Assembly: GCA_030673845.1 (NCBI GenBank)
Contig: JAUTCQ010000012.1
Coordinates: 186,001-250,000 of the forward strand
Length of the DNA stretch: 64,000 bases
Reading direction: 5' to 3'
Source of the DNA: Verrucomicrobiota bacterium JB022
GTDB lineage: Bacteria > Verrucomicrobiota > Verrucomicrobiia > Opitutales > Oceanipulchritudinaceae
The notes beneath the pieces were generated by a model. It had not been told where the DNA came from. It ran no database searches and saw only the letters and a program-made list of their open reading frames with translations. Both the position numbers and the translations under genes were made by a program. Shown here one piece after another: positions 59,687 through 61,454 of this stretch; position 1 is the stretch's first letter; each line of letters begins with the position of its first letter.

Positions 59687-61045
59687 TCAGACGACGACGT
59701 CTTCTTCTGGCGCCGTCTTGGCCCGTGCGACTGCCGAGCCGAGCAAGGCGCCTGCAAAGAGCAGCGGCCCTACCCGTCCAAAGAACATCAGCGCGGTCAC
59801 AATCAGCTTTCCGGCATCGCCCAGTTGCCCCGTGAGGCCACGGCTGAGGCCGACCGTGCCGAGCGCCGAAGCACACTCGAAGGCGATATCGACCAACGGC
59901 TGCGGCTGGAACGCGGCCAGCAGGTAGATACCGAGCCCGAGCAGCAGCATATAAAAGAGGCTCGTGGCCACCGCCAGCCTGCGTCGTACCTCGGGTATGG
60001 CCTTGCCGGCAAAAGTCGGTTCCGGTCGCCCTTTCAGCACGCTGACCATGATCGCCCAAAGCGCCGTGACGGTGGTGGTCTTCATGCCCCCACCCGTCCC
60101 GACCGGCGAAGCGCCCACCAGCATCAGCACGATGAGCAGGAGCGTCGAGGCCGATGACAATTGCTCGATCGGCAGGGTATTGAAGCCGACCGTAGTGCTT
60201 GCGGTCATCACCTGGAAAAAAGCGTTGAGCCACGCGGTGAGCCCAGAGGATGGTGCTGTCAGCGGCTCCTCGAACAGCAGCAACAGCCAGCAGACGCCGA
60301 TCAGGCAGGCCGTGCTGGCAAGGATGATCCGGCTCGTCAGCGTGAGCCCCACCTTGCGGCGGCGCAGCGAGCGCCAGAAGTCGTTGACAATGAGGAAGCC
60401 CATTGCACCGAGGATGCTGAGGGTGGAGATCACAACGTGCACCCCGGGGTTGGCTGCAAACTGGGTGAGGCTGTCGTCGTAGAGCGAAAAGCCGGCGGTG
60501 CAGAAGGCCGAGATACTGTGAAAAACGGCGCTCCAGAGCGGCTGCTCGACTCCAGCAGACGCAAAAAGCCACCAGAGCAACCCCGCCCCGACCAGTTCCA
60601 CGCAGAGGGTATAGGCGACGACAAGGCGCACGGTCGCGGCTACGTCCAGCTCTTCGGGAAGGTTGAGGGAGAGGCGCTGCGTGCGCTCGCGCCATTGATC
60701 AATGCGGCGTGAAGCGGCCAGCAAGACGAAGCTGCCGAAGGTCATGTAGCCGAGGCCACCCATCTGGATCAGCCCGATGATGACGAGCTGCCCAAAGAAG
60801 GTATAATCGTGCCCGGTGCTGAGCGTGACCAGCCCGGTGGTGGAGACGGCCGAGGTGGCGGTGAAAAGCCAGTCGAGCCAGCCGCCGTGGGTCGAGGCGC
60901 GGGCGTAGGGCAAGGCCAGCAGGCCCGTACCCGCAAGGATGTAAAACAGGTAGCCAAAGGCCAGCAGGCGCTTGGGCTCCCCTCGCACGAAGCGGGAGAT
61001 GCGGGTACGCATCCACCCGTCGATCCAGGTCCAGATCGCTTTCAT
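59687..61045 (-). CDS. trkH: TrkH/KtrB-family potassium transporter, c-di-AMP-controlled
   Basis: The 452-residue protein has the four P-loop repeats of TrkH/KtrB channels, each with a selectivity filter: TSAVSTTGLVT, ISAFCTAGFSL, TASTTVGFNT and ASALGTVGLSR. About ten membrane helices and the intramembrane loop region (VGASPVGTGGGMKTTTVT) are clear. It takes up K+, normally gated by a TrkA/KtrA ring, which is not in the window. The leader holds a c-di-AMP riboswitch and a stem that buries the AUG, so uptake should drop when c-di-AMP is high, as in other bacteria. This is the strongest regulated gene in the window. Confidence 0.95.
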   Translation of the reverse strand: MKAIWTWIDGWMRTRISRFVRGEPKRLLAFGYLFYILAGTGLLALPYARASTHGGWLDWLFTATSAVSTTGLVTLSTGHDYTFFGQLVIIGLIQMGGLGYMTFGSFVLLAASRRIDQWRERTQRLSLNLPEELDVAATVRLVVAYTLCVELVGAGLLWWLFASAGVEQPLWSAVFHSISAFCTAGFSLYDDSLTQFAANPGVHVVISTLSILGAMGFLIVNDFWRSLRRRKVGLTLTSRIILASTACLIGVCWLLLLFEEPLTAPSSGLTAWLNAFFQVMTASTTVGFNTLPIEQLSSASTLLLIVLMLVGASPVGTGGGMKTTTVTALWAIMVSVLKGRPEPTFAGKAIPEVRRRLAVATSLFYMLLLGLGIYLLAAFQPQPLVDIAFECASALGTVGLSRGLTGQLGDAGKLIVTALMFFGRVGPLLFAGALLGSAVARAKTAPEEDVVV

Positions 61046-61110
61046 CGGAAATCAGAGGTTGAAGTTACAAACGGTGCAAACAGGAGAGGCACCGGATCTG
61101 ATTTCCGATG
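61043..61110 (-). promoter_or_regulatory. Start-codon-sequestering stem (riboswitch expression platform) of trkH
   Basis: A 14-base perfect inverted repeat has its arms at 61043-61056 and 61097-61110. In the mRNA the second arm ends with the AUG start codon, so AUG pairs with CAU. The 40-base loop contains a smaller stem (CGGTGC 61072-61077 with GCACCG 61089-61094). If formed, it hides the ribosome site of trkH. It begins 14 bases after the riboswitch. Confidence 0.75.
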
Positions 61111-61123
61111 GGGCTCCCTCCGA

Positions 61124-61246
61124 AGCCGACGAGGTTAGCTGACGGGCTAGGCGCGAAAGGTCGCCTGGCAGAAGCTCTGCCTTCGCCCCGGCCTGGTCTC
61201 CCAGGCGGTTGGGTCCCCCGTTGAGCGCAATGGCGCCCACTAGGCT
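61124..61246 (-). promoter_or_regulatory. c-di-AMP riboswitch (ydaO-yuaA type) upstream of trkH
   Basis: Read on the minus strand, the conserved ydaO elements occur in order: AACGGGGGACCCAA (complement of about 61209-61222), GGGGCGAAG (about 61181-61189), and the 3' block CCCGTCAGCTAACCTCGTCGGC written as CCCGTCAGC, then TAACCTCGTCGGC (about 61125-61146). P1 can be AGCC/GGCT (61243-61246 with 61124-61127). The aptamer precedes a K+ transporter, the classic target of c-di-AMP. The match to the consensus is by eye. Confidence 0.93.
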
Positions 61247-61292
61247 ATGAGGTATAAGGATGCACAGCTCGGCCGCCGGCGCAACTGCGGCG

Positions 61293-61454
61293 TTATTCTG
61301 CCATTTCGCCGGTTGGGATGGTCTCCACCGGCTCCGGTTCGCCGAAACGCTGGTGGTAAATCATCCAGATGAGGAGCAACGAAAGGCCGAGCAGGCCGAT
61401 GATGAGGACAGCGCCGCCAATGCCGACGCGTCGGGATGGTCGCGACGATTGCAT
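61293..61454 (-). CDS. Small single-helix membrane protein (53 residues)
   Basis: An ATG read at 61454 opens a 53-codon frame ending TAA at 61293. It encodes a basic start (MQSSRPSRRV), a hydrophobic helix (GIGGAVLIIGLLGLSLLLIW) and a short acidic tail (GEPEPVETIPTGEMAE). The charge asymmetry puts the N-terminus inside and the tail outside. It lies 47 bases upstream of the trkH riboswitch on the same strand, and the 82-residue helical protein gene lies upstream of it. It may be a small subunit or a stress-response peptide; nothing specific is recognised. Confidence 0.6.
   Translation of the reverse strand: MQSSRPSRRVGIGGAVLIIGLLGLSLLLIWMIYHQRFGEPEPVETIPTGEMAE

Follow-up and report, generated by a model that had tools for sequence, protein, structure and literature searches.

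The ydaO riboswitches of Firmicutes are known to use transcription terminators (PMC9960051, PMC6488665), and earlier predictions had placed aptamers of this class before trk genes and also within Verrucomicrobia (PMC6488665). An established element of the ydaO fold is the pseudoknot which joins a loop to the tail (PMC5393176). For the ydaO leader of nlpC in C. glutamicum, translational control was reported in 2023 as not having been shown before: according to the authors, binding of the ligand would free an upstream strand to block initiation, in a still unproven model where one CUCC strand can pair either with the Shine-Dalgarno sequence or with a GGAG further upstream (PMC9960051). A ydaO platform that occludes a start codon was not found in the openly readable literature. 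We have analysed the leader of a trkH gene within a stretch of 64,000 nucleotides from a Verrucomicrobiota genome (the window), and the results obtained suggest that a c-di-AMP riboswitch represses trkH at translation initiation, a reading to which we assign a probability of about 0.7.

The presence of a ydaO-type aptamer, claimed in the original prediction from the nucleotide sequence, was put to the covariance search which that prediction had set as its test. The search (cmscan) returned a match to the c-di-AMP family (ydaO/yuaA, RF00379) at 61256-61109 of the minus strand, covering the full model length (1-134) with 65.3 bits and E 7e-13, well over the gathering score of 38, and covariance-model searching identified this as the sole copy in the host genome. 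The span initially given for the aptamer, 61124-61246, is exactly that delimited by P1, although the family match is wider (61109-61256). In the Rfam alignment, the P1 strands are AGCC (61243-61246) and GGCU (61124-61127), both on the minus strand, and the core stretches CGGGGGACCCA, GGGGCGAA and AGCCCGUCAGCUAACCUCG recur without change in the crystallised ydaO RNA, the sequence of which is given in PMC5393176. The pseudoknot is also present, as the loop strand CCUUUCG (61154-61160, minus strand) finds its partner in the tail strand CGGAGGG (61116-61122, minus strand); the position of the former agrees with the CUCCUUCG/CGAAGGAG pairing which is readable in the solved ydaO sequence, and in the 142 aptamers collected the loop-tail pairing covaries, with a mean z of 1.2 relative to swapped tails. 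We would expect the window RNA to bind c-di-AMP. Upstream of the aptamer match, and ending around 37 bases before it, lies an ORF of 53 amino acids with one apparent membrane segment (61293-61454, minus strand).

The gene context is also that of the family, which is associated with genes of K+, osmolyte or cell-wall homeostasis; relatives precede KimA, KUP, TrkH, Kdp and other genes. Downstream of the aptamer, trkH (59687-61045, minus strand) encodes a K+ uptake channel subunit of the TrkH/Ktr family with 452 amino acids, as inferred from a PF02386 match of 165 bits and from orthologues which are 61% identical. At residue 1 the alignment of four orthologues agrees to within one residue, which supports the AUG at 61045-61043, placed by the original prediction in the second arm of the stem; because the orthologues align at this position, the next in-frame ATG (61012) was rejected as the genuine start. 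No Shine-Dalgarno sequence is evident ahead of the window AUG, and no promoter was recognised for trkH. The same genome encodes a diadenylate cyclase with PTS_EIIA_2, DacZ_P and DAC domains (L005:562-1920, G000:C6), a fusion of the cyclase with a PTS EIIA-type and a DacZ_P sensor domain. An initial contig search with a single TrkH sequence as query matched no relative.

Between the aptamer and trkH the RNA contains two strands, A (CAUCGGAAAUCAGA, 61097-61110) and C (UCUGAUUUCCGAUG, 61043-61056, which includes the trkH AUG), that form an exact inverted repeat on the minus strand. The perfect 14-bp complementarity of the arms, CATCGGAAATCAGA at 61110-61097 and TCTGATTTCCGATG at 61056-61043, bears out the claim of a repeat that buries the start codon; the spacing between the end of P1 and the first arm, previously given as 14 bases, counts 13. 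The whole window contains no other perfect inverted repeat that reaches 12 bp with a loop no longer than 60, and shuffled windows give averages of 0.7 such repeats for 12 bp and 0.1 for 14 bp. Among 2000 dinucleotide-shuffled leaders, none scores as high for a helix that joins the aptamer tail to the start region. These numbers bear on the idea that the repeat arose by chance or acts at the level of DNA, for instance as a repressor palindrome, without any control by the RNA. Promoter palindromes do often bind proteins; however, the arms are here 40 bases apart with a hairpin between them, no other repeat of this kind occurs in the 64 kb, and orthologous leaders present compensatory changes, so that we consider this explanation very improbable.

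The orthologous leaders compared (L002, L003 and L004) belong to another genus of the same family, and their trkH starts were aligned with that of the window. They carry a shorter stem whose location with respect to the aptamer and to the start is the same, the arms being CGGUCC/GGACCG, UAUCGGUC/GACCGAUA and GUAUCGG/CCGAUAU, respectively. When the four leaders are set in a register of 11 pairs on the common CGG/CCG core, five pairs show two-sided changes, three are invariant and none shows a one-sided change; the compensatory changes for which the original prediction had called are therefore found. In this alignment 75% of the cells are paired, as compared to 60% in shuffles, with none of 500 shuffles as high; the covariation score is reached by one of 500, and sliding the partner strand lowers every measure. 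These values refer to four leaders, of which one genus contributes three, and to a register that was placed manually on the best helix; the orthologous stems, of 6-8 bp, individually stand barely above shuffles (p 0.135, 0.019 and 0.108). The finding is one of 14 bp over the AUG in the window and of orthologous stems that vary in a compensatory manner. A genome of the same genus as that of the window (G016) lacks the ydaO aptamer, and its TrkH paralogues are all distant, with 36% identity or less: the riboswitch and the trkH orthologue are there absent together.

A further element, which the original prediction had overlooked together with its connection to the pseudoknot tail, is a hairpin that competes with the start-codon stem. 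Strand B (UCCGGUG-C-CUCUCC, 61083-61096, minus strand) can pair with strand A through 7 bp (61110-61104 with 61096-61090), and with the tail through another 6 bp (61121-61116 with 61088-61083). As strand A is common to both structures, the A:B hairpin and the A:C stem are mutually exclusive, and the lower half of the former is made from the 3' strand of the pseudoknot. The local A:B hairpin can form in all four leaders, with the same layout in L002-L004, and its formation would be predicted to expose the start. Covariation of A:B is weak, as with three distinct rows 37 to 132 of 500 shuffles score as high. Swapping of tails and downstream regions over 109 leaders revealed no overall covarying tail pairing (mean z −0.07); as this procedure is blind to elements conserved across leaders, its outcome is neutral with regard to a general anti-sequestor.

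These elements can be arranged in a mechanism in which the RNA that follows the aptamer would function as three strands, where A (61097-61110, extended by the tail 61116-61121) may pair either with B (61083-61096), yielding an anti-sequestor hairpin that would keep the start accessible, or with C (61043-61056), yielding the 14-bp stem in which the AUG would be buried. Because the lower half of the anti-sequestor and the 3' strand of the pseudoknot are the same bases and exclude each other, the ligand should favour the start-codon stem: with c-di-AMP bound, the pseudoknot would hold the tail, A:B would be deprived of its lower half and A would pair with C, switching expression OFF. When no ligand is bound, A:B would form first during RNA synthesis, and the start could remain accessible for the time that ribosomes need for loading, corresponding to the ON state.

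Using folding predictions we have analysed the nascent window RNA and found that A:B is the predicted fold until around position 61056, after which A:C is ahead by approximately 10 kcal/mol. When the pseudoknot strand was withheld from pairing, as a proxy for the bound state, the predicted fold went to A:C in L002, L003 and L004; equally large gains were observed in 1.5%, 17.5% and 5% of the respective shuffles. In L003 the two helices lie closer in energy, and switching would there be expected at equilibrium. A distinct scenario resulted for the window RNA, in which the 14-bp stem is the equilibrium fold whether or not the pseudoknot strand is withheld. Since the stem wins either way, control in the window species would have to be co-transcriptional or kinetic, exerted during transcription or ribosome loading, and this is the weakest link of the model: without a kinetic contribution, the window switch could stay permanently OFF. 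It is at this point that one might see in the 14-bp repeat a lineage-specific extension, an unusually strong constitutive stem of one species which keeps trkH translation low, or dependent on a helicase, temperature or an sRNA, and which is decoupled from the aptamer. Such a state would fit the equilibrium model, where the pseudoknot strand has no influence on the window stem, as well as the shortness of the stems elsewhere in the family (6-8 bp), but the CGG:CCG core and its position are common to the orthologues, the aptamer core is intact and the anti-sequestor is predicted to form first in the nascent RNA. We therefore regard a decoupled stem as unlikely, and retain repression of trkH translation by the ligand-bound aptamer as the preferred reading.

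The minus strand between aptamer and trkH was also inspected for an intrinsic terminator with a U-tract, and none was found. Consequently, a ydaO switch of the terminator type was rejected for this locus, and translational control, as initially proposed, is the best reading. Regulation of transcription could nevertheless be achieved by a real aptamer through Rho-dependent termination, or through pausing or termination of RNA polymerase, with the start-codon stem contributing no more than a low basal translation. Apart from the precedent of the Firmicutes switches, a Streptomyces ydaO element that has no canonical terminator is reported, as cited in PMC9960051, to affect transcript levels, and in the window formation of the stem is predicted irrespective of the ligand. 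However, such regulation is at odds with the lack of an intrinsic terminator after the stem, and would leave aside that the stem lies on the AUG, that its strands co-vary and that they compete with a hairpin which uses the aptamer tail. We consider it improbable, if somewhat less so than a decoupled stem, and repression at translation initiation is kept as the working model.

We have also carried out a wider survey of 143 distinct ydaO leaders from Verrucomicrobiota (class and phylum), from genomes labelled Phycisphaerae and from a few others, in which the downstream genes were named by eye from sequence and clustered by BLAST. Most of these leaders precede K+ or osmolyte genes, and the downstream products comprise KimA, KUP, SPFH-like proteins, TrkH, MscS-like channels, Kdp and others; in 18 leaders (e.g., L009, L043 and L120) the aptamer stands before one related membrane-protein family which, judging from its sequence, resembles SPFH/flotillin. 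A simple scan detected terminator-like sites within 170 nt in only five of the 143 leaders, so that the premise of the original prediction, that ydaO switches usually act through terminators, is a poor fit to this clade. The helix from tail to start is enriched in the trkH set only, where 5 of 16 leaders reach p≤0.05; the possibility that all ydaO leaders share the same stem was rejected, as those of KimA, KUP, SPFH and other genes, whose starts were chosen by a simple rule, look like chance.

Several arrangements emerge from this set. In trkH leaders of MAGs labelled Phycisphaerae (L136/L214 and L139/L215), 11 bp join the tail to GGAGGAUCG[UC]C immediately before the AUG, the aptamer tail GGCGAUCCUCC pairing with GGAGGAUCGUC or GGAGGAUCGCC and covering the Shine-Dalgarno sequence; a related MAG trkH leader (L232) keeps 8 of the 11 pairs and has an uncompensated mismatch. 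The tail GGCGAUCCUCC of leaders of the L136/L139 type can alternatively pair with a downstream GAUCCCCUU. In L031 and L034 (KimA) and in L157 (a trkH leader with an Omnitrophica title), a Shine-Dalgarno GAGG lies within the 3' tail of the aptamer, a few bases before the AUG, and folding of the ligand-bound form could hide it directly. Six KimA leaders (L213, L216-L219 and L222), obtained by an order-level search around the L136 genome, contain a CUCUC element complementary to the purine-rich aptamer tail, which in several of them is also complementary to a GGAGGU sequence resembling a Shine-Dalgarno, as was proposed for C. glutamicum nlpC. As a tentative generalization, for which we would not yet claim even odds, ydaO elements of Verrucomicrobiota and relatives may be mostly translational and use several platforms, either a tail-fed stem at the start codon or at the Shine-Dalgarno/start region, or a Shine-Dalgarno sequence embedded in the aptamer tail.

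With B. subtilis ydaO/kimA and B. thuringiensis kdp (RF00379; PMC6488665) the window leader shares the aptamer class, the core, the pseudoknot, the control of K+ uptake and the expected OFF direction; these switches have, however, an intrinsic terminator with a U-tract, whereas in the window leader there is none and a competing stem covers the start codon. With C. glutamicum nlpC (PMC9960051) it has in common the ydaO type, the lack of a canonical terminator and a most likely translational mode of action, in the case of nlpC as judged by reporter assays, but the nlpC target is a cell-wall peptidase rather than trkH. The two also differ in their shared strand, which in the window is the aptamer-proximal arm A, and in the element to be blocked, which is the AUG itself: strand B does contain CUCUCC, yet no GGAG-like sequence precedes the window AUG. 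With translational sequestor/anti-sequestor riboswitches in general the leader has in common that two mutually exclusive helices would decide the exposure of the initiation region, with the distinction that here the anti-sequestor is coupled to a ydaO aptamer through the tail strand of the pseudoknot. Translational ydaO control being on record once, for nlpC in 2023, the trkH leader adds a concrete three-strand model with comparative support, places the connection between ligand and initiation at the pseudoknot tail, and points to a bacterial group whose c-di-AMP control of K+ uptake apparently dispenses with terminators.
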